Source: a virus. Taken from it: a stretch of 22,495 nt of DNA. The stretch is from IMG/VR virus record IMGVR_UViG_3300047323_000434, positions 1 through 22,495 of that record, one strand, 5' to 3'. Below, one piece after another: positions 5,001-14,111 of this stretch (the first letter of the stretch is position 1; the number at the start of each line of letters is the position of its first letter). The position numbers and the translations under genes were made by a program. The notes below the pieces were generated by a model, which worked only from the letters and a program-made list of their open reading frames with translations, searched no databases and was not told the origin of the DNA.

Positions 5001-5260
5001 CGGAGTGCGCCCTTCGTCGGAGCGGTGAGGAGCATGAGGAGCGCGGCCGCCGACAGCGCGGCATCCCGCACCGTGGCCTTCGCGTTGACCAGCTCGACGA
5101 GCAGCCAGTCCGCAGCGCGGGACTCCAGCAACGGCCGGCAGTCCGGCCACGCGAAGTGGTCCGCGTCGACGAGCAGCACGAACGGGACGGTCGTGGCCGA
5201 GGCCATGGAGAGGCCGAGGGAGAGGAACGCGGCCCACTCGGCCGGGGTGGTGGTGTGCAT
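4997..5260 (-). CDS. Small membrane-associated protein
   Basis: The 87-aa product has a hydrophobic segment at about residues 10-31 (AAFLSLGLSMASATTVPFVL) and another near the C-terminus (ALSAAALLMLLTA, 66-79). Between them is a polar stretch (DADHFAWPDCRPLLESRAAD). It probably spans or dips into the membrane twice. Its ATG overlaps the upstream stop by 1 nt (TGATG). It is the second small membrane protein of the early operon, with no visible similarity to the one at 3.3 kb. Confidence 0.65.
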   Translation of the reverse strand: MHTTTPAEWAAFLSLGLSMASATTVPFVLLVDADHFAWPDCRPLLESRAADWLLVELVNAKATVRDAALSAAALLMLLTAPTKGALR

Positions 5261-6192
5261 CAGGCACCGCCCATCTCGGGTAGGTCCCGGCCGAGCCGCC
5301 AGTTGTGGTGGAGAGGCGAGTCGTGCGGGTCCTCCCGCAGCGCCTGCAACGGAGCGATCCGCTGGGTGATCGCATCCGGCGCCCCGGTCAGCGCCGCCCT
5401 GAGCTCCCGCATCTCCGAAGAGCCCGGGCCCACCGCAGGCACGACCGTGTCGTACGGGCCCGGCTCATCGGCCAGCGGGCAGTCCACGTCATGCGGCTCG
5501 CCACGGCCCGTGTCCGGGCACGTGCACCCGTCTTCGTCCTCGTTGACCAGGTCGTCCGGGTCCTCGCCCGTGAAATCGGGCGGGCACGTGCACGGGGCTC
5601 CGGACTGGTGGACGGCGGCGCAGTCCGGGTGGTGCTTGCGGATACGAGGCGGCTCCGATTCGGCGGGCTCGTCCTTGCTGGCGGCCTGCGACGGGGCAGC
5701 AGCCTCGGGGCCGAGCGCGTCCTCCAGATCGATCGTGTCGACCGCGCTCCAGCCCTTGTCGATGGCCCGCTCCACGAGGGAGTGGACATCAGCCCAGCGG
5801 TCGCGCTCCGCGTCCCGCCAGGCGACCCCGGCCGTCAGCTCCGAGATCTCGTCCCGGTTCGCGCGGAGGGCCTGCACCGCGTCGTCGAGCGCCTCGTTCG
5901 TCGAGTGCCGCTCCGCCAACAACTCCGCGACCTGGGAGCGCAGCTGTTCCAACTCGGTCCGGGGCGGCGGGAACGACGGCGCGCCCACCGGGACGGGCAG
6001 CGCGAACGCCGACCCGACGATCCCCAACTCCGCGAGATCCGCCAGCGACACCAGCACCTCATCCGGGACACCAGCCACCGAACCCGCCAGCGCATACCAG
6101 CCACGCCCGTCACGCGACACCGCACGCCGCGTCCAACACGAGCCATCCGCCGTGTTCACCACCAGCGGGTGATGCGACACCGGGGCGCTCAT
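5260..6192 (-). CDS. Coiled-coil protein with two CxC cysteine knuckles, unknown function
   Basis: The 310-aa protein begins MSAPVSHHPLVV. Residues 80-140 form a coiled coil (TELEQLRSQVAELLAERHST onward). An acidic linker leads to two Cys/His clusters: HHPDCAAVHQSGAPCTCPPD (187-206) and CTCPDTGRGEPHDVDCP (223-239). The Cys spacing (C191, C201, C203; C223, C225, C238) with nearby His residues suggests one or two bound zinc ions. Met15 of the longer frame was chosen as start because its ATG overlaps the upstream stop in the usual ATGA form. A protein- or nucleic-acid-binding adaptor is plausible; no family was recognised. Confidence 0.75.
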   Translation of the reverse strand: MSAPVSHHPLVVNTADGSCWTRRAVSRDGRGWYALAGSVAGVPDEVLVSLADLAELGIVGSAFALPVPVGAPSFPPPRTELEQLRSQVAELLAERHSTNEALDDAVQALRANRDEISELTAGVAWRDAERDRWADVHSLVERAIDKGWSAVDTIDLEDALGPEAAAPSQAASKDEPAESEPPRIRKHHPDCAAVHQSGAPCTCPPDFTGEDPDDLVNEDEDGCTCPDTGRGEPHDVDCPLADEPGPYDTVVPAVGPGSSEMRELRAALTGAPDAITQRIAPLQALREDPHDSPLHHNWRLGRDLPEMGGA

Positions 6193-7122: not shown

Positions 7123-7240
7123 AAATTGCCCGCAAGGTATGAATTTCCACTAGAACGCGCATTCGAATACAGGTGTGAGCTGTGTTAACGCAGGTCAGTG
7201 ACCTGATCGCGACTCTTGCGCGGGAGGGATTTTCTGGCTA

Positions 7241-7257
7241 CTCCCTAACTAGGGAGG
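7241..7257. promoter_or_regulatory. Immunity operator 2 (dyad CTCCCT-N4-AGGGAG)
   Basis: A perfect 6-bp inverted repeat with spacer AACT, 136 bp from operator 1 and with an identical core. It ends 15 nt before the repressor ATG, suiting autoregulation by the repressor or shut-off by the Cro-like protein. An extra GGGAGGGA stretch at 7222-7229 may be a weaker half-site. Confidence 0.7.
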
Positions 7258-7271
7258 TACAGTTCCGGGAC

Positions 7272-7718
7272 ATGACCGATGCGACCCCCACACGCGCGCA
7301 ACGATTCGCCGCCATCGTCGTGCCAGCTGCCGAACACGCCGGCTACACCGGCCACGGCGCCAAAGCGCGCTTCGCGCGGGACACCGGCATGACCGACAGC
7401 AGCGTCACCCGCCTGTGGCAAGGAACCGCCCTCCCCGAGGCGCGGTTCTACGAAGCCATCGCCACCGCAACAGGCATCGACCTCAGAACTCTCCTCGTGG
7501 AAGGTGGCGTTCTGTCGCCTGAATCCCTTCAGTCACTGTCCGAAACGGATCGATCGCAGGTAGGCTCTGGCCTCACGCCGGAGGAAGCGGCTGATCGACT
7601 AGGGATTCGGGACGAAGTGGGGCGCCAGCTTTTCTACGCAACCATCGAACGTCTCAAGCGTCTGCAAGACGACCACGCCGATCACGCTGAGCCCGGAGGG
7701 ACAGCGGCACAGATGTGA
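7272..7718 (+). CDS. Probable lysogeny repressor (HTH protein)
   Basis: The 148-aa protein starts MTDATPTRAQRFAA. The HTH lies at about residues 30-60 (GAKARFARDTGMTDSSVTRL), followed by GTALPEARFYEAIATATGID, a repressor-like N-terminal domain. The C-terminal half has LTPEEAADRLGIRDEVGRQL and an acidic/His tail and may mediate oligomerisation; it is too short for a LexA-like peptidase domain and no Ser-Lys dyad is evident. The gene is on the plus strand, opposite the early operon, behind two matching operators. ATG at 7272 was chosen because it begins the folded domain. No good ribosome-binding site precedes it, and an upstream in-frame start at 7182 would place the operator inside the gene. 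The repressor role is inferred from position. Confidence 0.8.
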   Translation: MTDATPTRAQRFAAIVVPAAEHAGYTGHGAKARFARDTGMTDSSVTRLWQGTALPEARFYEAIATATGIDLRTLLVEGGVLSPESLQSLSETDRSQVGSGLTPEEAADRLGIRDEVGRQLFYATIERLKRLQDDHADHAEPGGTAAQM

Positions 7719-7731
7719 GGCGAGGGTGCAT

Positions 7732-8280
7732 ATGAATCTCACGGGCGGCAGACAGGCCACAGGAACAGCAACTCTGGCGGCCGTCGGGGGACTTGCACTC
7801 ACCGTCCACGGACTCATGGGCGATAAGCCGCTGTGCTCTTTCAGCGGTGTCACCCTCGTCATGGTCGCGTTGACCGCCATCATCCTGACCATGATCCGGA
7901 AATGGGTCACCGACACCAGCGATGAACGACGTCTCCTCGCCGCAACCCAGCGTGAAGCCCAGGCCGAACGGAGCCGCTACCTCGCCGCGAAGGCGGCCCT
8001 CGTCAACGAACAAGCGCGCATGAGCAAGGACATAGCCGCGGAGCGCGCGGCACTCACCGCCCGGCTCAAGAGCGAACGTGATGCGATGCAAGCCGAGTTT
8101 GATGCGGCGCTCGGTGAAGTTTCGTCCGATGCGGTGAATATCGCGATGTCCTGGGTTCTTGCTGGAAAGTTCGCCCCGCCGCAGCCCCAGCAGGGCAACC
8201 TCATCCAGTTCCCTCACCAGCAGCCGCAAGGCCAGCCGCAGCGTGAGCGGTCGCGGGAGCACGGAGTCGTCCGGCCCTGA
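7732..8280 (+). CDS. Membrane protein with coiled-coil cytoplasmic domain
   Basis: The protein is about 182 aa (MNLTGGRQATGT). It has two predicted spans, near residues 12-30 (TLAAVGGLALTVHGLMG) and 37-56 (FSGVTLVMVALTAIILTMI), then a long coiled coil (DERRLLAATQREAQAERSRY through RLKSERDAMQAEFD) and a Gln/Pro-rich tail. It follows the repressor by 13 nt and is probably co-expressed in the lysogen, which fits a superinfection-exclusion or membrane-linked immunity role; that is inference. ATG at 7732 is preceded by GAGG; a GTG two codons earlier is possible. Its last 80 bp overlap the integrase gene, which runs the other way. Confidence 0.75.
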   Translation: MNLTGGRQATGTATLAAVGGLALTVHGLMGDKPLCSFSGVTLVMVALTAIILTMIRKWVTDTSDERRLLAATQREAQAERSRYLAAKAALVNEQARMSKDIAAERAALTARLKSERDAMQAEFDAALGEVSSDAVNIAMSWVLAGKFAPPQPQQGNLIQFPHQQPQGQPQRERSREHGVVRP

Positions 8281-9847
8281 ACCCCGGCTCACCGAAGAAC
8301 GCCAGCCGGATACGGCCGTCATCCAATGCGCGCCGGCCAGTCGACTTCACCTTGTGCAGACGCACCGTCACGATCTTCCGGATCACCTCGCGTTTCTGAT
8401 CCATCGTGAGCCCCGGCTCCGCAGGTTGGTCCGCAGTCTGGGGGCGTCCGTTCCATACGAGGTCGGGATCGTTCGACTCCAGCATCCGGAGCAGCAGTGG
8501 CGACACCCCCGTGAACGTCGTCAGCTTCTTCCGCTCCGTCTCCAGCTTCGGCTCCAGCCGCGACTCCATCGCCGCGAGCGAGCCCGCGGACAGTTTGAAC
8601 CGGCCGGTTTCCTTGTCGAATTCATGGGCCAGAGCGCGAGCTTCGGCGAGCTGCTCCTCGTAGGCGTTGATCAGCTTCTGTGTGGCGGCCGCCTTCTCCT
8701 TGACCTTGTCGTCCGCCGGTACCAGCGCAGCCCGCGCCGTCTTCTTATCGCTGAACCAGTCGAGGACCGCTTCCTCGACGTAGGCGTCGAGCACGGCCAT
8801 GACGATGGAGGTATCGAACTTCTCCTTGCAGACCAGCGTCGTCTTCCGCACGCCACTCGGAGCGAGGTAGCGCAAGACCGCGTGGTCGCCGCACTCGCCA
8901 CACAGAGCGACGTACGACAGCAGGTGCTTCGGTTCGGTGCCGCGTTGCGTCCGGCGGGCTGGGTCGGTGAGCTTGGCCGTGACCCGGTTGAACATGGCCC
9001 GGCCCTGCGGGGTGTCGAGTCCCTTGATCGGAGCCCACACGGCTGGGATGTACGTGGTCAGGTGAAGACGTTCACCCAGGTAGGCCCGGTTCAGCAGCAT
9101 CTGCCGGACCGCCTGCTCTTTCCACTCGCGACCGTCCGGGCGTGCCGCGTCCGTCTCGGAGCGCAGCCATCGCGTGAGGGCCCTGAGGGAGTGACCAGCG
9201 TCCATGCGCTCCAGGGCCTGGAGTACGTAGGTCCCGCGCACGGGATCTTCGGTCTGTCCCGTGCAGCGCTTGCGCCCGCTGACTGTCTGGTAGGTGCGGA
9301 TGTAGCCGTAGATGGCTTTGCCGTGCGGCATGCCTGCCTGGGCTTGGGAGTTGGTGGTGCGGATGTTCCGGTCGCGGATGCCTTCGGCCTCGTCTTCGGC
9401 ATCGATGGCGTGCATGGCCGTGGCCTTGCTGTCATCGCGTCGGCTGAGGTCGTAGATCTGGCCGTTGTAGCAGAGGAGGGTGCCGGTGTCCCGGCATGCT
9501 TTCCGGAAGCGGACGTAGGCTTCCAGGTCCCTGTAATAGCGGGATGCTTCGAAGGCGATCACGATGCGTCGCACGCCCCGGGGAGGGGGCTCCTCGGTCA
9601 TGGAGGCGATCAGAGCCTCGAAGTCGTCGCGGACCTTGCGGCCGTGGCGGCTGGCTGAGACGTCTGTGTCGTTGAACTCGCGGCGGATGCGCCAGTTGTG
9701 TCTGTTGCAGAGACCGCGCCCGTTGGCGAGTTGGTCTTCGACGGAGGCGCCGCTGCTTGTGGAGTCGTCGCTGTTGCGGCCGTAGAGCAGGGCTTCGAAG
9801 GTGACGCCGGGGATGACCAGGTGCAGGTATTCGGGCGCGTAGGGCAT
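8201..9847 (-). CDS. int: Large serine integrase
   Basis: The 548-aa site-specific recombinase integrates phage DNA by recombining attP with attB. The N-terminal resolvase domain (17-165) has LLYGRNSDDS with catalytic Ser26 and Arg24, VEDQL, and EASRYYRD with Arg103 and Arg106. The recombinase domain follows (about 170-295, including AGMPHGKAIYGYIRT and MLLNRAYLGE). A zinc-ribbon region has C316-GE-C319 and C340, but the usual fourth Cys is not seen. A coiled coil spans 380-445. An Ala/Gly-rich tail (about 527-548) is encoded in the part overlapping the convergent membrane-protein gene. ATG 9847 has no Shine-Dalgarno; TAACAT sits exactly 7-12 nt upstream, so the message may be leaderless. The candidate attP lies just upstream, as in phiC31-type phages. 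Confidence 0.95.
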   Translation of the reverse strand: MPYAPEYLHLVIPGVTFEALLYGRNSDDSTSSGASVEDQLANGRGLCNRHNWRIRREFNDTDVSASRHGRKVRDDFEALIASMTEEPPPRGVRRIVIAFEASRYYRDLEAYVRFRKACRDTGTLLCYNGQIYDLSRRDDSKATAMHAIDAEDEAEGIRDRNIRTTNSQAQAGMPHGKAIYGYIRTYQTVSGRKRCTGQTEDPVRGTYVLQALERMDAGHSLRALTRWLRSETDAARPDGREWKEQAVRQMLLNRAYLGERLHLTTYIPAVWAPIKGLDTPQGRAMFNRVTAKLTDPARRTQRGTEPKHLLSYVALCGECGDHAVLRYLAPSGVRKTTLVCKEKFDTSIVMAVLDAYVEEAVLDWFSDKKTARAALVPADDKVKEKAAATQKLINAYEEQLAEARALAHEFDKETGRFKLSAGSLAAMESRLEPKLETERKKLTTFTGVSPLLLRMLESNDPDLVWNGRPQTADQPAEPGLTMDQKREVIRKIVTVRLHKVKSTGRRALDDGRIRLAFFGEPGFRAGRLRAPATAHAAAGLAAAGEGTG

Positions 9848-9853
9848 GCGTCG

Positions 9854-9859
9854 ATGTTA
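9854..9859 (-). promoter_or_regulatory. Candidate -10 element (TAACAT) of a leaderless integrase transcript
   Basis: Read on the minus strand the hexamer is TAACAT, matching the actinobacterial TANNNT pattern. It occupies positions -12 to -7 if transcription starts at the A of the integrase ATG, and no ribosome-binding site is present. The -35 region would lie in the outer left arm of the attP palindrome and shows no clear consensus. Confidence 0.5.
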
Positions 9860-9870
9860 GCGAAGTCTTG

Positions 9871-9916
9871 CCATCCCTAAATAGGCTTGTGGAGCCACAA
9901 AGTGGTTTAGGGGTGG
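9871..9916. other. Candidate attP site (46-bp imperfect palindrome)
   Basis: Two 22-nt arms flank a central AG dinucleotide at 9893-9894; 16 of 22 positions are complementary between arms. Matches fall in three blocks: 6 bp next to the centre (CTTGTGG-type, TTGTGG/CCACAA), 7 bp further out (CCCTAAA/TTTAGGG) and 3 bp at the ends. The five unmatched positions beside the inner block would be where the arms differ. Size, symmetry, a non-palindromic central dinucleotide and position 24 bp from the integrase start fit a large-serine-integrase attP. No attB is in the window, so the crossover point is inferred. Confidence 0.75.
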
Positions 9917-10149
9917 TTATTTGTTGGGTCCGGCTGGTCCGGCGGGGTGGCGTCGCAGACCTCGTCGACGAGCTCCAGCGTCTCGTAGAGGCGGATGCGT
10001 AGCTGTTCGACGATCAGGATCAGGGACGCCGGCTCCAGCTGCGCAAGGTCCTCGGCCCGGAAGGTTTCCAGGTCGCGACGTGCGTAGTCGATCTGGGCCT
10101 TCTGGATGTCGGTCAGGCGCGCTGGTGGGCGTGGGGGGTCTTCGTGCAT
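9907..10149 (-). CDS. Small helical protein beside attP, unknown function
   Basis: The 80-aa protein begins MHEDPPRPPARLTDIQKAQI. Residues 12-66 form a strongly helical stretch (DYARRDLETFRAEDLAQLEP, then LILIVEQLRIRLYETLELVD), and the tail is Pro/Asn-rich. ATG 10149 has an AGGTGA ribosome-binding site at good distance; a GTG four codons upstream (10161) is less well placed. Its TAA stop lies inside the right arm of attP but outside the likely crossover, so integration would not truncate it. It points toward the integrase on the same strand. No family recognised. Confidence 0.65.
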   Translation of the reverse strand: MHEDPPRPPARLTDIQKAQIDYARRDLETFRAEDLAQLEPASLILIVEQLRIRLYETLELVDEVCDATPPDQPDPTNNHP

Positions 10150-10275
10150 GGGGGCTTTCACCTGATGCTGGGCGCGGGATGGTGGGGGCGCGCCAGGGTG
10201 GGCGGCCGATGCATGGGTGGCACAGCTAATTGTGTGTTCAATATTTGCACACGCGCAATGACAGTTAACTCACAT

Positions 10276-10289
10276 CACTCGAACGAGTG
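10276..10289. promoter_or_regulatory. 14-bp palindrome CACTCG-AA-CGAGTG, possible operator
   Basis: A perfect 6-bp inverted repeat around AA, in an AT-richer gap (10150-10387) between a leftward gene and a rightward XRE gene. It is followed by TTTTATT on the plus strand, so a weak terminator is an alternative, but no rightward gene ends nearby. A control site for the divergent pair is more likely. Confidence 0.45.
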
Positions 10290-10336
10290 TTTTATTCGAA
10301 GTTGGTTGCGTTCTGGCCGGAACGCGATCTCGCAAA

Positions 10337-10354
10337 TGTACCAACGATGGTACA
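10337..10354. promoter_or_regulatory. 18-bp dyad TGTACCA-N4-TGGTACA, likely XRE operator
   Basis: A perfect 7-bp inverted repeat with spacer ACGA, ending 33 bp before the GTG of the small XRE gene. Size and symmetry suit a dimeric XRE repressor, so autoregulation is the simplest reading. A second inverted repeat (GCGTTC-N6-GAACGC, 10308-10325) lies just upstream. Confidence 0.6.
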
Positions 10355-10387
10355 GACAATGATCACGCCCGCCACCAGCGTGTATGC

Positions 10388-10621
10388 GTGCCCACCGATC
10401 CCCTGCCCGCCCGGGTACTCGCCCGCCGACAGGCCATCGGAGACCGCATCCGCGCCGCCCGGACTGAGCGGAAGCTCACACAGGAGAAGCTCGGCGAGGC
10501 GACGGGCCTGGACCGCAAGACAATCAACCGGATCGAGAACGGCGCGTACGCGACGCTCATCGACCACCTGATCCTCATCGCCGACGCCCTCGACACCCCG
10601 CTCGTCGACCTCGTGAGGTGA
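10388..10621 (+). CDS. Small XRE-family transcriptional regulator
   Basis: The 77-aa protein is essentially one Cro/C1-type HTH: AIGDRIRAARTERKLTQEKL (16-35), GEATGLDRKTINRIENGAYA (36-55), then IDHLILIADALDTPLVDLV. Gln32, Thr44 and the RIENG turn follow the family consensus closely. It starts at GTG with no visible ribosome-binding site; no better in-frame start exists. The gene is one of only four plus-strand genes in the window, preceded by two dyads and followed by a strong hairpin that begins at its stop codon, so it is probably its own transcription unit. It could control the genes of the island, the neighbouring leftward gene, or host targets. Confidence 0.85.
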   Translation: MPTDPLPARVLARRQAIGDRIRAARTERKLTQEKLGEATGLDRKTINRIENGAYATLIDHLILIADALDTPLVDLVR

Positions 10622-10659
10622 CCCGCCGCAAGCCCATCGGGAGCACTGCGGCGGGTCAC
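10618..10659 (+). terminator. Strong hairpin at the end of the XRE gene
   Basis: Perfect 13-bp arms (10618-10630 with 10647-10659, beginning GTGACCCGCCGCA) and a 16-nt loop. The left arm includes the TGA stop. There is no U-run, as is common for Streptomyces terminators. It may also act on leftward transcription leaving the DUF397 gene. Confidence 0.6.
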
Positions 10660-10741
10660 GACGGCCACCGCTGACAAGCGGCCGTCCTCATCCCACAGCC
10701 GGGCGTGGGGCGGTCCCGGCAGTGGAACGTCTTGCAAGGGG

Positions 10742-10939
10742 TCAGGCGCCGAGCGTCCCCGCCCTCACGCCCTGGAGGAACGCGCCCCAAGCGTCGCCCG
10801 AGGCGGCTGCGGCGGGAATGCCGCGGTCCTTGGTGTCACGGAAGAACGCCCCGCCGGTGGTCTTGGCGACCTCGACGCAGGCCCCGTTGCCGCCGGAGTA
10901 ACTGGACGTGGCCCAGGTGAGGTCGTCGGTGTTGTGCAT
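10742..10939 (-). CDS. DUF397 protein
   Basis: The 65-aa protein matches the DUF397 pattern: TWATSSYSGGNGACVEVAKT (residues 8-27), then FFRDTKDRGIP and a closing AAASGDAWGAFLQGVRAG. In actinobacteria these small proteins are usually encoded beside XRE regulators (WhiJ- and AbaA-like loci) and are thought to work with them in controlling development. ATG 10939 was chosen because it begins the conserved domain and has AAAGG upstream. Two XRE genes flank it here, at 10.4 kb (convergent) and 11.8-13.0 kb (same strand), though neither is directly coupled. Family identification is confident; molecular role is not. Confidence 0.9.
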   Translation of the reverse strand: MHNTDDLTWATSSYSGGNGACVEVAKTTGGAFFRDTKDRGIPAAAASGDAWGAFLQGVRAGTLGA

Positions 10940-10967
10940 GGTGCGCCTTTCAGTAGTTGTTCTTGAC

Positions 10968-11004
10968 GGGTGGCCGTCTGTCCCGTCGGACCAGACGGCC
11001 ACCC
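10968..11004 (-). terminator. Perfect 13-bp-stem hairpin, likely terminator
   Basis: Arms GGGTGGCCGTCTG and CAGACGGCCACCC around an 11-nt loop, with no U-run. It stands between the two-gene Cys-rich operon (11110-11648) and the DUF397 gene on the same strand, where it would separate the two units. Confidence 0.6.
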
Positions 11005-11046
11005 ACCCGCGGCGTCACGGTCTACCCAGCGCGCGCCGCGGGTTCA

Positions 11047-11079
11047 CCGCTGCCGTTTGGCAACACAGGTCGGCAGCGG
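11047..11079 (-). terminator. Second hairpin in the same gap (9-bp stem)
   Basis: Arms CCGCTGCCG and CGGCAGCGG with a 15-nt loop, 31 nt past the stop of the gene at 11110. With the hairpin at 10968 it makes a tandem pair after this operon. It could instead be a regulatory structure ahead of the DUF397 gene. Confidence 0.45.
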
Positions 11080-11109
11080 AGTCTTCAGTGGGGTAGAGAC
11101 CGGGGGTCG

Positions 11110-11307
11110 TTATGACCACGTGCTCCCGGACGTGTCCGTGAGGCTGCGGCGGCCGTTGAAGCGGTCGACGTGCTTGCCGGCGTGACCGGGCCGGAGTGTG
11201 CAGCGGCCCGCCTTGCGCGGGTTCCGTGCCCAGCAGTAGCCCGCCGCCCGCCCGGCTGCGCGGGACTTCTCCTCATTGTCCGGGAACGCCGGCTTCCGCC
11301 CGCTCAT
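11110..11307 (-). CDS. Small Cys/His basic protein, unknown function
   Basis: The 65-aa protein begins MSGRKPAFPDNEEKSRAAGR. It contains YCWARNPRKAGRCTLRPGHA then GKHVDRFNGRR: two Cys and two His in a C-x11-C-x5-H-x3-H-like arrangement that could bind one zinc ion. The protein is strongly basic, which would suit nucleic-acid binding. It overlaps the upstream gene by 4 nt (ATGA), so the two are translated together. No family name assigned. Confidence 0.65.
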   Translation of the reverse strand: MSGRKPAFPDNEEKSRAAGRAAGYCWARNPRKAGRCTLRPGHAGKHVDRFNGRRSLTDTSGSTWS

Positions 11308-11648
11308 GCGGCTGCCCTGCCCTGCTTGGCGAGCTGCTGGAGCGCGTGCCCCTGGTCGCAGCCCGGGGCGGAGTCCTTGCATGTGTGGCAGTCCTGGGTG
11401 TGGTCCAGGAGGGCCCGATACGCGGCGCGGCGGGTGCAGGCGCGGCAGCCGCGCGGGTACCAGGACACGGGCTCCCCGGCGCGGCTCGCGCTTTGCACGC
11501 CAAGGTCGACCGCGGTCGCGGGCGTGAGGGCGATACCGTCCCACACGCAGGCCATCCCGCGGACCTGGTGCTCAGACAGTCCGGCGACGCCAGGGATGGC
11601 TAACAGGTCGAGCACGCTGGCCTGGCTGGTGTGGGTTTCCGCTTGCAT
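11304..11648 (-). CDS. Cys-rich protein, probable zinc-binding, unknown function
   Basis: The 114-aa protein has a helical N-terminus (SVLDLLAIPGVAGLSEHQVR), then GMACVWDG with Cys34, and a Cys cluster GCRACTRRAAYRALLDHTQD (C68, C71) continuing CHTC (C87, C90) and C97. Two CxxC pairs suggest a structural zinc site. The architecture recalls unnamed Streptomyces proteins found near XRE regulators; I recall those often having CxWCG where this has CVWDG, so one ligand may be lost, but I cannot verify this here. ATG 11648 has GGAGG 8 nt upstream. It lies downstream of the XRE-TPR gene, behind a repeat-rich control region. Confidence 0.7.
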   Translation of the reverse strand: MQAETHTSQASVLDLLAIPGVAGLSEHQVRGMACVWDGIALTPATAVDLGVQSASRAGEPVSWYPRGCRACTRRAAYRALLDHTQDCHTCKDSAPGCDQGHALQQLAKQGRAAA

Positions 11649-11711
11649 GTCTCACGCCTCCGCGGTCACGGTGATCCGTCTCACATCCGGGACCGTAAGG
11701 CGCAGCAGAAA

Positions 11712-11742
11712 GCCGAGGGGGTACACCTCCTACCCCCTCGGC
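11712..11742 (-). terminator. Hairpin after the XRE-TPR gene, likely terminator
   Basis: Perfect 12-bp arms (GCCGAGGGGGTA / TACCCCCTCGGC) with a 7-nt loop; on the minus strand the stem is followed by TTTCT. It begins 30 nt past the stop of the XRE-TPR gene, in the right orientation to end its transcript. Because it contains one copy of a direct repeat, an operator role is also possible. Confidence 0.6.
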
Positions 11743-11765
11743 CACGGGTACAGTTCCTACCCCCT
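11719..11765. repeat. Direct repeat GGGTACA-NN-TCCTACCCCCT, two copies
   Basis: Copies at 11719-11738 and 11746-11765, start to start 27 bp, identical at all 18 fixed positions. Each also has GGGTA-N7-TACCC symmetry. They lie upstream of the Cys-rich operon (start 11648), where a TACGGT hexamer (11692-11697, minus strand) could be a -10 element. The layout suggests a pair of regulator sites, perhaps for the XRE-TPR protein. Confidence 0.6.
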
Positions 11766-11771
11766 ACGTGA

Positions 11772-13025
11772 TCACACGGGCACACCCAGTTCCCGCGCCA
11801 GCCCCAACGCGTCATCCCGGACCATCCGCGGCCCCGACTTCACCAGCTCCGGCAGCACCGACCGGGTGTGCAAGTTGTACTGGATCGTCTCCGGAGACTC
11901 ACGGAACGCCTTCCCCAGCAGCGACACCGCGGCCGTGCCCTCCCCAAGCATTCCGTGCGCCCGGGCCGACTCGATCAAGTGGTACGAGCGGCGCGTCGCC
12001 GATGGAATCTGGCCCAGGTCCAGCGCGTCCGCAACCTCCAGCGCCTTCGCGGGCTGCATCAGATCGTTGTGCATGGTGATCGCGTACCCGTTGACGATGC
12101 CCCGCCCGAAGACCAACCAGGGGTGCGCGTAGTCGTCACCGAGCTGGCGGGCAGCGTCGTCGGCCTTGTCCCAGTACCGCCACGCATCCCCCTGCTGGCC
12201 CGTCTTCGCGTACGACAGGGCCACCGCGAGATACAGCAGCCCGCGGCGGGCAATGTGTTCCGGGTCCTCTCTGTCCTGCAACAGGGCGGCGGCCTGCTCG
12301 GCGAGGTCGACGCGCGCCTCCGCGGCTTCTCCGGCGTCACGGTGGACGTGGTTCATGTACCAGGCGGCGGCCGCGATCGCGCGCGGGCTGTCCGCGTCCT
12401 GCGCAGCCGTCATGGCCCGGTCGCCGGTGAGGACGACGAGATCCGGCGCGGGCTGGAAGCTGAGGAACAGTTGAGCGAGGTGGTAGGTCTCCGCGAGCGA
12501 GACCAGCGCCCGCCGGCGCTCCGCCCCTTCAAGGGCGCGTGCCGCGTGCTGGGTGTCGGCGAGGAGGCTGGGCAGTAGGCCGACGATGCGGGTGCGGTTC
12601 CCCTCCACCGTCGTCCCGTGGTTGGTGCGGGGGTCGCTGTCGTGCCACAGCTTCCATGCGGTCCGCAGCCGGGCGGCGAGGATCTCCGCGGACTCCGGCT
12701 CGCGGTCGTCGGGGGCGAGCTGGTAGGTGGTGAGAGCACGCTTCACGGTCGGCAGGGCGCCGTGCTCCGCCTTCGTGTAGGTGGCGGCTGCGAGGCGTTC
12801 TTCGCCGGTGAGTTCGGCGAGGTCTTCGATGCCGAGGACGTGCGCGAGCCTGAGTAGTTTCGGGAGGCGGGGCATTCCGATGCGGCCTGTCTCGATGGCT
12901 TTGACCCACTCGGCGGACTGGTCCATGAGGCCTGCGACGACGGCGCGGGTTTTCCCGGTGCGTAGGCGGGCGTGTTGGACGCGCTGGCCAAAGGTAGGGG
13001 GTGCGGTGTCGGTGTGCTCGGGCAT
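11772..13025 (-). CDS. XRE regulator with TPR-like C-terminal domain
   Basis: The 417-aa protein has an N-terminal HTH (FGQRVQHARLRTGKTRAVVA, then MDQSAEWVKAIETGRIGMPR; residues 12-68) and a long helical C-terminal region (about 100-410) with TPR-like repeats, for example LLYLAVALSYAKTGQQGDAW and RRSYHLIESARAHGMLGEGT. This is the XRE-TPR architecture of Streptomyces developmental and antibiotic regulators, where the TPR part usually binds a protein or peptide signal. ATG 13025 has GGAG at suitable distance. A dyad CGTTCTGA-N9-TCAGAACG sits directly upstream, a likely self-binding site. It ends 30 nt before a hairpin and is followed by the Cys-rich operon. The gene looks host-derived in type. 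Confidence 0.9.
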   Translation of the reverse strand: MPEHTDTAPPTFGQRVQHARLRTGKTRAVVAGLMDQSAEWVKAIETGRIGMPRLPKLLRLAHVLGIEDLAELTGEERLAAATYTKAEHGALPTVKRALTTYQLAPDDREPESAEILAARLRTAWKLWHDSDPRTNHGTTVEGNRTRIVGLLPSLLADTQHAARALEGAERRRALVSLAETYHLAQLFLSFQPAPDLVVLTGDRAMTAAQDADSPRAIAAAAWYMNHVHRDAGEAAEARVDLAEQAAALLQDREDPEHIARRGLLYLAVALSYAKTGQQGDAWRYWDKADDAARQLGDDYAHPWLVFGRGIVNGYAITMHNDLMQPAKALEVADALDLGQIPSATRRSYHLIESARAHGMLGEGTAAVSLLGKAFRESPETIQYNLHTRSVLPELVKSGPRMVRDDALGLARELGVPV

Positions 13026-13034
13026 ACTGGACTC

Positions 13035-13059
13035 CGTTCTGACCTAGACACTCAGAACG
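13035..13059. promoter_or_regulatory. Dyad CGTTCTGA-N9-TCAGAACG, likely operator of the XRE-TPR gene
   Basis: A perfect 8-bp inverted repeat 10 bp upstream of the XRE-TPR start codon, in the 139-bp gap to the divergent 59-aa gene. A second symmetric element, TCCCCC-N7-GGGGGA (13064-13082), follows. Autoregulation is the likeliest reading. Confidence 0.55.
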
Positions 13060-13093
13060 CTACTCCCCCTCCGCGTGGGGGATATGGCGGTTG

Positions 13094-13130
13094 CGCCCCC
13101 TGTTCGGCCTGCGGGCCTGTTCAGGGGGCG
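13094..13130. repeat. 9-bp inverted repeat in a divergent gap
   Basis: Arms CGCCCCCTG and CAGGGGGCG with a 19-nt loop that holds a further small GGCC/GGCC symmetry. It lies between the divergent XRE-TPR gene and the 59-aa gene. No gene ends here, so an operator is more likely than a terminator. Confidence 0.45.
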
Positions 13131-13152
13131 TGCCTATGTCCGCAGTGGCCCG

Positions 13153-13158
13153 TAGGCT
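13153..13158 (+). promoter_or_regulatory. Candidate -10 element (TAGGCT) of a leaderless gene
   Basis: TAGGCT fits TANNNT and occupies exactly -12 to -7 relative to the ATG at 13165, while no Shine-Dalgarno lies before that ATG. This geometry is known from leaderless Streptomyces transcripts; the -35 is not evident. Confidence 0.5.
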
Positions 13159-13164
13159 TGTCTC

Positions 13165-13344
13165 ATGTCCCCCACCCCTCTGCCTAGCGGCGCTGTGCGG
13201 CCTGCTGCGGTCGTGAATGAGGACATCCGCGCCCTGTGGCCGCGCGCGCGGGCGGAGCTCACCGCGGAGGAACGCGAGGCGTACGAGCGGCTGTTGGTGG
13301 AGTGGGCGGCCGCGGTCCGGGCCGAGGTCGTCGAGGCCGCGTAG
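13165..13344 (+). CDS. Short acidic helical protein (59 aa), probably leaderless
   Basis: The frame reads MSPTPLPSGAVRPAAVVNED and continues IRALWPRARAELTAEEREAY then ERLLVEWAAAVRAEVVEAA. The N-terminal part is Pro-rich; the remainder is one or two amphipathic helices rich in Glu, Arg and Ala. The pattern resembles short hypothetical proteins common in Streptomyces. Support comes from the -10 element at the correct leaderless distance, strong third-position GC use, and two hairpins just after the stop, the second a canonical terminator. It is divergent from the XRE-TPR gene. Function unknown. Confidence 0.7.
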   Translation: MSPTPLPSGAVRPAAVVNEDIRALWPRARAELTAEEREAYERLLVEWAAAVRAEVVEAA

Positions 13345-13356
13345 AACTTCGCTGAA

Positions 13357-13374
13357 CTCCCCAGCCGTGGGGAG
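13357..13374 (+). terminator. Small hairpin CTCCCCA-N4-TGGGGAG after the 59-aa gene
   Basis: Perfect 7-bp arms and a 4-nt loop (GCCG), starting 13 nt past the stop codon and followed by AAAT. It may be a first, weaker terminator or a binding site. Confidence 0.4.
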
Positions 13375-13441
13375 AAATCCCGGCGCCCCTCCGCTACCGT
13401 CGGGGTGCTGACGTTGCACCGTGGCCGGTCCGTACAGCAGT

Positions 13442-13470
13442 GCCCCCGGGGTGGTGCCCGGGGGCTTTTT
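13442..13470 (+). terminator. Intrinsic terminator with U-run
   Basis: A 9-bp GC stem (GCCCCCGGG / CCCGGGGGC), a 6-nt loop and five T residues on the plus strand: a textbook rho-independent terminator for transcription coming from the 59-aa gene. Its last base touches the stop codon of the convergent collagen-like gene, and the stem may also stop the late transcript arriving from the right. Confidence 0.9.
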
Positions 13471-14111
13471 CACAGGTACTTGCGGCGCGGGTCGAGGCCT
13501 GCGGCGAGTGGGGTCGGGGTGCTGCTGCTGCCCGGATCGGGGGCGCCATCGCGGCGGCACACCAGCGCATCCGGGTCGTACGAGGGCGCCTGAAGGCTGT
13601 ATCCGTCCGGGCAGGTCTGCCCATCCTGCCCGTCACGTCCGTTCGTCCCGTCCTGCCCCGCAGGTCCAGCCGGTCCCTGCGCGCCCTGGGCTCCTGTGGG
13701 TCCGACAGGACCGGCCGGACCGACCGCTCCGGGACTGCCCGCGGACCCCGTCGCGCCCGCCTTCCCCGGAGACCCGGACGGCCCCGGAGAACCCGCCGGG
13801 CCCTGCGGCCCAGGGATCGGCACCGGGACCTCCGTTCGTGCGGGCAGATTGTCCACAGCCTTCGTCGGGTCCGGAGCCACCGGAGTCCCACCCCGCGCCT
13901 GCACCTGCGCCCGCAGCGCCCGCACATCCCCCGCCAGCGTGGACACCGCATCGCCCCGCTTGTTCGCCTCAGCCGCGGCCGCCGCATAGTTGCGGTCCGA
14001 GGAGTCGATGCGATGCCACAACGCCCACGAGATCCCGAACAGGCAGAGGATCGCGCACAGGGTCGCGATACCCCGCCAGTGCAGGACGATCGTGCGCTCG
14101 GTCCGGGTCAT
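13470..14111 (-). CDS. Membrane-anchored collagen-like protein
   Basis: The 213-aa protein starts MTRTERTIVLHWRG. One hydrophobic span (about 12-32, IATLCAILCLFGISWALWH) is followed by a coiled-coil-like segment (NYAAAAAEANKRGDAVSTLA to about 72), a Pro-rich linker, and about 22 uninterrupted Gly-X-Y triplets (residues 101-166, starting GPQGPAGSPG and ending GRDGQDGQT). The C-terminal end has a pair of Cys (TCPDGYSLQAPSYDPDALVC). Trimeric collagen helices are expected from this repeat. It is the last gene of the late operon and is coupled to the TM/coiled-coil gene by ATGA. A membrane anchor is odd for a collagen-like virion fibre; a spanin-like or envelope role during lysis is an alternative, but unproven. 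Confidence 0.85.
   Translation of the reverse strand: MTRTERTIVLHWRGIATLCAILCLFGISWALWHRIDSSDRNYAAAAAEANKRGDAVSTLAGDVRALRAQVQARGGTPVAPDPTKAVDNLPARTEVPVPIPGPQGPAGSPGPSGSPGKAGATGSAGSPGAVGPAGPVGPTGAQGAQGPAGPAGQDGTNGRDGQDGQTCPDGYSLQAPSYDPDALVCRRDGAPDPGSSSTPTPLAAGLDPRRKYL

Follow-up and report, generated by a model that had tools for sequence, protein, structure and literature searches.

Why would a Streptomyces phage carry, between its lysis genes and its attachment site, a block of regulator genes that in part resemble those of its host? This question is raised by IMG/VR virus record IMGVR_UViG_3300047323_000434, of which positions 1 to 22,495 were analysed as one stretch (hereafter the window). 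On its minus strand, the genes for the lysin, a small protein and a collagen-like minor tail protein are followed by p59, a small gene on the opposite strand, and by a gene for a regulator of the XRE type with tetratricopeptide repeats (XRE-TPR); then come genes for two Cys-rich proteins and a DUF397 protein, a small XRE gene on the opposite strand, p84, an inverted repeat resembling a phage attachment site (attP) and a serine integrase gene (Table 1). All genes that a preliminary description of this DNA had placed between the repeat and the lysis genes are indeed open reading frames (ORFs) at those positions. A search for near-identical DNA among annotated phages retrieved a single phage, Chymera (two records), over 2% of the window. 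The reading that we favour, and consider moderately probable, is that the block is an exchange slot of the lysogenic-conversion type for regulatory cassettes, situated at the edge of the future prophage.

The content of this place in related viral loci (labelled L) was read with baits that had been chosen independently of the regulator, namely the lysin (33 loci) and a 1107-aa tail protein (53 loci); an integrase bait yielded 5 loci, which stand outside the slot count. The region beyond the lysin was read in every lysin locus and, for the tail bait, in 33 of its 53 loci, chiefly long ones; a lysin match was lacking in 10 of the 66, and 19 were read gene by gene. Loci without p59, loci extending less than 4.4 kb past the lysin and duplicate contig copies were left out, near-copies of the window were counted once, and L219, L233, L236, L257, L263, L280 and L291, which carry p59 or a p59-like gene, were excluded since their slot was not resolved. 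In the resulting 14 p59-positive groups, the slot holds an XRE-TPR protein ten times, another helix-turn-helix (HTH) protein once and a GntR-type regulator three times. Seven of the XRE-TPR proteins belong to the clade of the window (the window group, L215, L218, L221, L228, L261 and L281), one to the clade of the phages Ignacio and OnionKnight (L214), and two are divergent (L232, L275). The other HTH protein (L216) has 405 aa and only a weak TPR match; among the GntR-type regulators, as classified with Pfam, those of L217 and L240 carry a UTRA domain and that of L220 is a GntR protein of 90 aa. The small XRE gene was present in 13 of the 14 groups, the contig of L214 ending before its position. 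The block is thus not present or absent as a whole: relatives keep p59 and the small XRE gene and exchange the middle.

The same pattern was seen from the regulator itself. Scanning IMG/VR with the XRE-TPR as bait gave 23 loci, in which tblastn detected p59 (14/23), the small XRE (20/23), the 114-aa Cys-rich protein (11/23) and the DUF397 protein (4/23). No match to the small XRE was obtained among these 23 in L011, L024 and L027, and L028 has it at another place of its locus, on the opposite strand; L011 ends and L025 begins inside the XRE-TPR gene, so that the absence of genes there is uninformative. In L009 the border is sharp, with 98% identity in XRE-TPR and 51% in the small XRE. Variable content at a fixed place is therefore true of the middle, with p59 and the small XRE nearly constant. 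In annotated phages, neither p59 nor the small XRE gave a match at the limits used, but a search confined to the loci of Chymera and OnionKnight did find relatives of the latter. The -10-like hexamer TAGGCT (13153-13158) lies 6 nt upstream of the ATG of p59, and most of the distinct p59 relatives have such a hexamer 6-7 nt before their ATG, which suggests that the transcript may be leaderless. Ratios of nonsynonymous to synonymous substitution (dN/dS, Nei-Gojobori) were 0.10-0.22 for XRE-TPR (8 comparisons), 0.41-0.49 for p59 (6), 0.31-0.41 for the small XRE (4) and 0.49-0.74 for the 114-aa protein (4). Purifying selection thus acts on XRE-TPR and, more weakly, on the other three, and none of the four is a chance ORF.

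Two annotated phages illustrate the exchange. Chymera (gp24-gp28, NC_073457) carries, between its lysis genes and its integrase, an XRE-TPR with 68% identity, behind the same promoter dyad and with an opposing small XRE, but no relative of the DUF397, 114-aa or 65-aa Cys-rich protein was detected there, and its integrase is of the tyrosine type whereas that of the window is a serine integrase. OnionKnight (gp26-gp29, OQ938575) arranges an XRE-TPR, both Cys-rich proteins and an opposing small XRE as the window does, but its XRE-TPR is only 36% identical and stands behind another promoter type. Cargo beside attP is of a known kind: morons, or lysogenic-conversion genes, lie beside attP, bring their own transcription signals and vary in content at a fixed place. 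The block is like them in its position and its variable content, may be like them in its transcription signals, and is unlike them in encoding regulators instead of toxins or enzymes, in its constant small flanking genes and in an effect on the host that is only predicted. Literature searches among the open-licence full texts of PubMed Central (PMC) listed neither an exchange slot for Streptomyces-type regulators with fixed small flanks nor a promoter dyad common to divergent regulators.

Relatives of the XRE-TPR (at least 80% of the query each, tblastn) occur in 21 annotated records representing 11 phages, all of them phages of Streptomyces. Chymera, Ignacio, OnionKnight and SF3 have the gene between lysis genes and integrase; in SF1 it comes after the lysis genes, and the stretch examined has no integrase. 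A scan of bacterial genomes yielded 29 loci, of which 28 belong to Streptomyces and the remaining one to Nocardiopsis, and 53 of 150 Streptomyces genomes contain a family member at E<=1e-50. Phage and chromosomal copies are intermixed on a tree of 64 rows, on which the label 'chromosome' has to change no fewer than 16 times, with starred branches forcing 13 of the changes; the tree was made by a quick method, has several long branches and includes divergent rows selected by their promoter dyad. The earlier view of the block as host-type therefore needs to be divided: several of its genes are akin to Streptomyces chromosomal genes, but XRE-TPR is an established phage family at this position (phrog_5823; relatives in these 11 phages) and no stray host gene. 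Structural phage genes, as recognised with a small set of homology queries, were found near 9 of 49 genome loci.

Some neighbours of the bacterial copies were recorded in passing. In L046, L053 and L185, a collagen-like gene is the sole phage structural gene recognised beside XRE-TPR, a pattern that might fit a decayed prophage of which the edge alone survives. A neighbour with the pattern DAVRVP..YLGVP..WRVP is frequent in bacterial cassettes (downstream in L185, L187, L188, L193, L194 and L198) and in some of them precedes, or is fused with, a Cys-rich part; proteins resembling it by eye occur in the phage or prophage loci L019, L020, L026 and L034. Those of L185, L188 and L193 matched no Pfam family at E<=0.1, and a suspected kinship with Prim-Pol proteins found no support in Pfam. 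In L188, L193 and L199, putative genes for enzymes of peptide natural products, of the methyltransferase or the ATP-grasp type, were noted by eye 1.1-1.5 kb beyond XRE-TPR.

The leading rival explanation concerns the same protein: XRE-TPR may be the phage's own lysis-lysogeny sensor, comparable to AimR and other RRNPP regulators, with an HTH part and a TPR part that would bind a small ligand or a partner protein. Its AlphaFold model (mean predicted local distance difference test, pLDDT, 86.5) consists of an HTH and a TPR-like helical superhelix joined by a low-confidence linker, an architecture shared with DNA-binding members of the RRNPP group (Rap, NprR, AimR), and VIA-align returned Rap, phage Rap, AimR and NprR at Z 13.9-16.5. 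Unrelated eukaryotic TPR proteins, however, matched equally well or better (Z up to 18.1), so that the fold match is generic, and the solved structures related to XRE-TPR by sequence cover the HTH part only, besides weak stretches above E 0.5. A sensor would suit both the strong purifying selection and the finding that all 14 resolved slots contain some regulator, but in 3 of these groups it is a GntR-type regulator that replaces XRE-TPR, and the many homologues in bacterial genomes also speak against this reading. A simple scan of 9840-13470 for ORFs of 20-75 aa whose N-terminal stretch is hydrophobic found two, neither of them on the XRE-TPR strand, and thus no candidate peptide gene. We consider a sensor function unlikely on balance.

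The promoter region of XRE-TPR contains the 25-bp dyad CGTTCTGA-N9-TCAGAACG, the sole window site of this motif with 3 or fewer mismatches, where 0.07 are expected. Five of nine related phage records contain it, each at a single site; in one record this site has 1 mismatch. Exact matches in IMG/VR were found in 17 stretches from 16 contigs, each 9-13 nt before an XRE-TPR start (some cut by the locus end). Of 295 Streptomyces genomes, 16 have a site with exact arms, one site each, in all 16 cases before an XRE-TPR-like start (one interrupted, one cut by the locus end). With a longer pattern and up to 2 mismatches, 36 sites were found in 27 of 246 genomes, compared to 2 for the reversed control; 27 of the 31 examined precede XRE-TPR (one a stub of 26 aa, one cut by the locus end), and the other four (L166, L175, L178, L179) do not. 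A bulk host regulon of the dyad was rejected, the 16-base pattern at 2 mismatches giving mostly noise among the sites listed. A role as RNA hairpin was considered in view of the variable spacing of the arms (8-10 nt) and of the ribosome-binding site that comes next; it is disfavoured, since a -10-like TAnCGT reaches into the left arm and the transcript would then be predicted to start within the dyad.

The proteins encoded behind this dyad are diverse. Allowing variants with up to 6 mismatches, they form 17 clusters under 60% identity (9 with exact arms, 8 with variants) with a mean N-terminal identity of 32%, and their recognition helices differ (SAEWVKAIE, ARSTIAKVE, SPSMLSRII, TEAWVANVE). 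Conversely, L024 has the helix of the window's XRE-TPR with a changed dyad, CGTTTCGA/TCGAAACG; L021, L026 and L043, of the same clade, have another promoter, and L056, of another clade, has a close variant of the window dyad. Helix and operator distances were uncorrelated in the 17 clusters (Mantel r -0.02, reached by 10,518 of 20,000 permutations); since these loci were gathered mostly by the dyad, the operator variety is limited by design, and this test, like that for the small XRE below, takes relatedness as is, uncorrected. Of 30 loci chosen by protein, 7 showed the dyad or a clear variant, and these 7 all have a helix of the window's type; two other promoter types track, by eye, two other clades. 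Promoter type thus goes with clade in part, but the association is crossed in both directions. These other promoters, TACTCTGGC.. and TACCCTGGCAGTG(T/A)CGAGCTG.., were seen in L027-L030, L053-L055, L057-L058, L100-L103 and L110-L125; the latter type shares the AGTG(T/A)CGAG core past the -10-like hexamer.

The small XRE behaves differently from XRE-TPR at the same loci. Its gene is preceded by an operator-like dyad, and across relatives the helix LDRKT(I/V)NRIE pairs with TGTACCA-N4-TGGTACA, RDHRT(I/V)HRWE with TTTGCC-N6-GGCAAA, LDRPSVVRIE with TGTAGGC-N4-GCCTACA and IDVASYSRIE with ATTAGGGTTTACCCTAAT. For 14 helices with one dyad each, dyads scoring below 5 being omitted (L012/L215, L013, L017, L025, L233, L240, L257, L291), helix and operator distances correlated with a Mantel r of 0.47, matched by 1 of 20,000 permutations. 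L240 and L257, which share a helix and have different weak best dyads, count against this coupling. From the change of the operator with the recognition helix we infer that the small XRE acts as a self-regulator. The XRE-TPR dyad, by comparison, is constant before unrelated helices, changed before the same helix and present in more than one clade. These observations, together with the normal coupling kept by the neighbouring small XRE, are the grounds for a tentative proposal, which we regard as possible but doubtful: the dyad may be the address of a shared regulator, other than the XRE-TPR encoded behind it, that would couple phage and chromosomal cassettes to one host signal.

With two HTH proteins encoded near the integrase, one might also take the small XRE or XRE-TPR for the lysogeny repressor and the block for plain phage genes of immunity or transcription. 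For the motifs tested, however, each of the two has one site, at its own promoter, and none at early lytic promoters; the type of regulator in the slot varies while relatives retain similar lysis and tail genes, and another repressor candidate is present at 7182-7718 (phrog_3949, 2.4e-17). We therefore regard this explanation as very unlikely. The candidate, an HTH protein encoded on the plus strand, is divergent from the minus-strand genes on its left, and the following plus-strand gene (7726-8280), with a weak match of coiled-coil type, is convergent with the integrase gene, whose end it overlaps; the two are likely the immunity region.

The DUF397 protein of the cassette is canonical: it contains the SSYSG and CVEVA motifs, which a passage of PMC10294661 gives as typical of this domain. 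Its presence near XRE genes recalls the XRE-DUF397 loci of Streptomyces (WhiJ with a BldB paralogue, Scr1/Scr2), and the preliminary description had assigned the block to developmental loci of the WhiJ/AbaA type. We had to abandon this assignment. The XRE partners tabulated for DUF397 proteins of S. coelicolor in PMC10364602 bear DUF5753, which Pfam detected neither in XRE-TPR, a member of another family, nor in the small XRE, whereas the same library detects it in gp28 of phage Austintatious. There is no adjacent XRE gene on the same strand as the DUF397 gene, the small XRE gene being convergent with it, and no HATPase of the AbaA type was matched among ten window proteins scanned; according to the part of PMC10294661 that treats them, abaA occurs in five of ten DUF397 loci of S. 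venezuelae, so that the latter absence alone is weak evidence. As neither XRE has DUF5753, the DUF397 protein of the window is an orphan. A true XRE-DUF397 pair was seen in the Streptomyces phage Austintatious (NC_048153, L295), where an unannotated DUF397 ORF lies just after gp28 (5125-5934, DUF5753 at 3.6e-44), at a place where the record annotates a repressor on the opposite strand. No literature combining 'Streptomyces phage' and 'DUF397' was found in the PMC texts mentioned above. As regards the 114-aa Cys-rich protein, C34, C68, C71, H83, C87, C90 and C97 are invariant in the 10 aligned sequences and resemble a metal site; its predicted fold (pLDDT 83.8) had no PDB match at E<=0.001.

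In agreement with the preliminary description, the block appears to consist of several units with separate transcription signals, as hairpins lie at the unit junctions and -10-like hexamers precede genes. These hexamers and hairpins are the only promoter and terminator signals of its own that were seen. A scan for sigma-70-type promoters found none, and 2 terminator-like sites were found where 1.4 are expected from shuffled sequence, so that the hairpins alone are little proof.

The layout of XRE and small-protein genes and the variable content at a fixed place would also be expected of a superinfection-exclusion or toxin-antitoxin-like module aimed mainly at other phages. The weak HipB-type matches that point in this direction stay far below their cut-offs (41.8 versus 71.65 bits for the small XRE), PADLOC gave only generic HTH matches for the small XRE and none for six other proteins tested, and no toxin family was matched in NCBIfam or PADLOC. 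Overexpression of DUF397 proteins in S. coelicolor was without clear toxicity, as far as an excerpt of PMC10364602 describes it. We judge such a module to be quite unlikely.

The layout agrees with the lysogenic-conversion position claimed earlier for the block, with lysis genes on one side and the likely attP on the other; the repeat at 9871-9916 probably serves as attP, as suggested by its place after a serine integrase gene. The location at a prophage edge is supported by tRNA genes adjoining some chromosomal copies, which is no proof for the present phage. Among 10 genome loci scanned, a tRNA gene lies 0.3-0.5 kb past the small XRE in L043, L050 and L051, 2.4 kb past it in L046, and 0.65 kb past the Cys-rich gene in L055; in L044 one was found 5' of XRE-TPR.

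Table 1 Features of the window and its regulatory block.
Feature	Position	Strand	Evidence or remark
Window	22,495 bp		IMG/VR virus record
Large serine integrase, adjoins block	8201..9847	-	phrog_95 3.6e-46; Pfam Resolvase and Recombinase domains
attP-like inverted repeat	9871..9916	.	22-nt arms 9871-9892/9895-9916, 2-nt centre 9893-9894
p84, small predicted helical protein	9907..10161	-	relatives in L014, L017, L018, L019 and window near-copies
Operator-like dyad of small XRE gene, TGTACCA-ACGA-TGGTACA	10337..10354	.	sole window site at <=3 mismatches, 0.16 expected
Small XRE regulator, 77 aa, attP-side slot border	10388..10621	+	HTH_3 1.3e-14; in 20/23 viral loci
Hairpin between small XRE and DUF397 genes	10618-10659	.	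repeat scan
DUF397 (BldB-paralogue type) protein, 65 aa	10742..10939	-	PF04149 9.9e-16, 58.1 bits vs cut-off 24
Hairpin between DUF397 gene and Cys-rich genes	10968..11004	.	89% complementary, 18-nt arms
Cys-rich protein, 65 aa	11110..11307	-	start overlaps stop of preceding gene; 43% identity over 49 aa to phage OnionKnight
Cys-rich protein, 114 aa	11304..11648	-	alignment of 10 sequences
Hairpin between XRE-TPR and Cys-rich genes	11712..11742	.	12-nt perfect arms
XRE-TPR regulator, 417 aa	11772..13025	-	HTH_31 3.4e-10; phrog_5823 over residues 9-416 at 4.2e-101
Promoter-proximal dyad CGTTCTGA-GTGTCTAGG-TCAGAACG	13035..13059	-	overlaps -10-like TAGCGT (13057-13062)
Hairpin between divergent XRE-TPR and p59	13094..13130	.	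9-nt perfect arms
p59, divergent small gene, lysis-side slot border	13165..13344	+	relatives of 59-64 aa
Terminator-like hairpin with T run, 3' of p59	13442..13465	+	terminator scan
Collagen-like minor tail protein, borders block	13470..14111	-	phrog_1806 2.7e-35

Taken as an exchange slot, the block is bordered by p59 on the lysis side and, towards attP, by the small XRE, which would regulate itself. What these two enclose is a self-contained cassette: XRE-TPR, two Cys-rich proteins and the orphan DUF397 protein, supplied with promoter-like signals and hairpins of its own. In related phages the slot is filled by XRE-TPR proteins of other subfamilies, by another HTH protein or by regulators of the GntR type. 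The cassette would be transcribed in the lysogen, with the small XRE and XRE-TPR controlling their own transcripts and the Cys-rich proteins as possible metal-binding partners, and the net effect would be lysogenic conversion through host regulation. For example, the phage DUF397 protein might hetero-oligomerise with BldB-type proteins of the host, as BldB does with its paralogues according to a passage of PMC10294661. That the phage alters its bacterium by means of the block is plausible.

Several results weigh against this reading. None of the 14 resolved slots is without a regulator of some kind, which points to a need of the phage more than to optional cargo; the genes of the block are not, as a set, fixed core genes of replication or immunity in relatives, but this finding leans towards such a need. 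By the small query set, 40 of the 49 genome loci lack a structural phage gene, so that many of the copies in chromosomes may not derive from a prophage. A tRNA gene is absent from the prophage loci L034 and L040 (roughly 21 kb each), and a downstream one from L044, L045 and L057. DUF397, by which the block is linked to development, is rare: three of the four viral loci with it are near-copies of the window, and only 2 of 13 phage records have it. Finally, no host target or effector was recognised among the proteins encoded by the block, and, for the motifs tested, the single site of each regulator in the phage lies at its own promoter.

Effects of phages on the physiology of Streptomyces are little known, as stated in the paper by Samy (PMC11302927). 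If one factor reads the shared dyad, prophage cargo and resident cassettes would be joined in a single circuit, and the contrast at the same loci between the coupled operator of the small XRE and the uncoupled one of XRE-TPR makes the idea of a shared factor directly testable. The slot is a defined place, found in many phages, at which regulators related to those of the chromosome are exchanged and end up beside the attachment site, and it offers a short list of genes for deletion and expression in laboratory strains.

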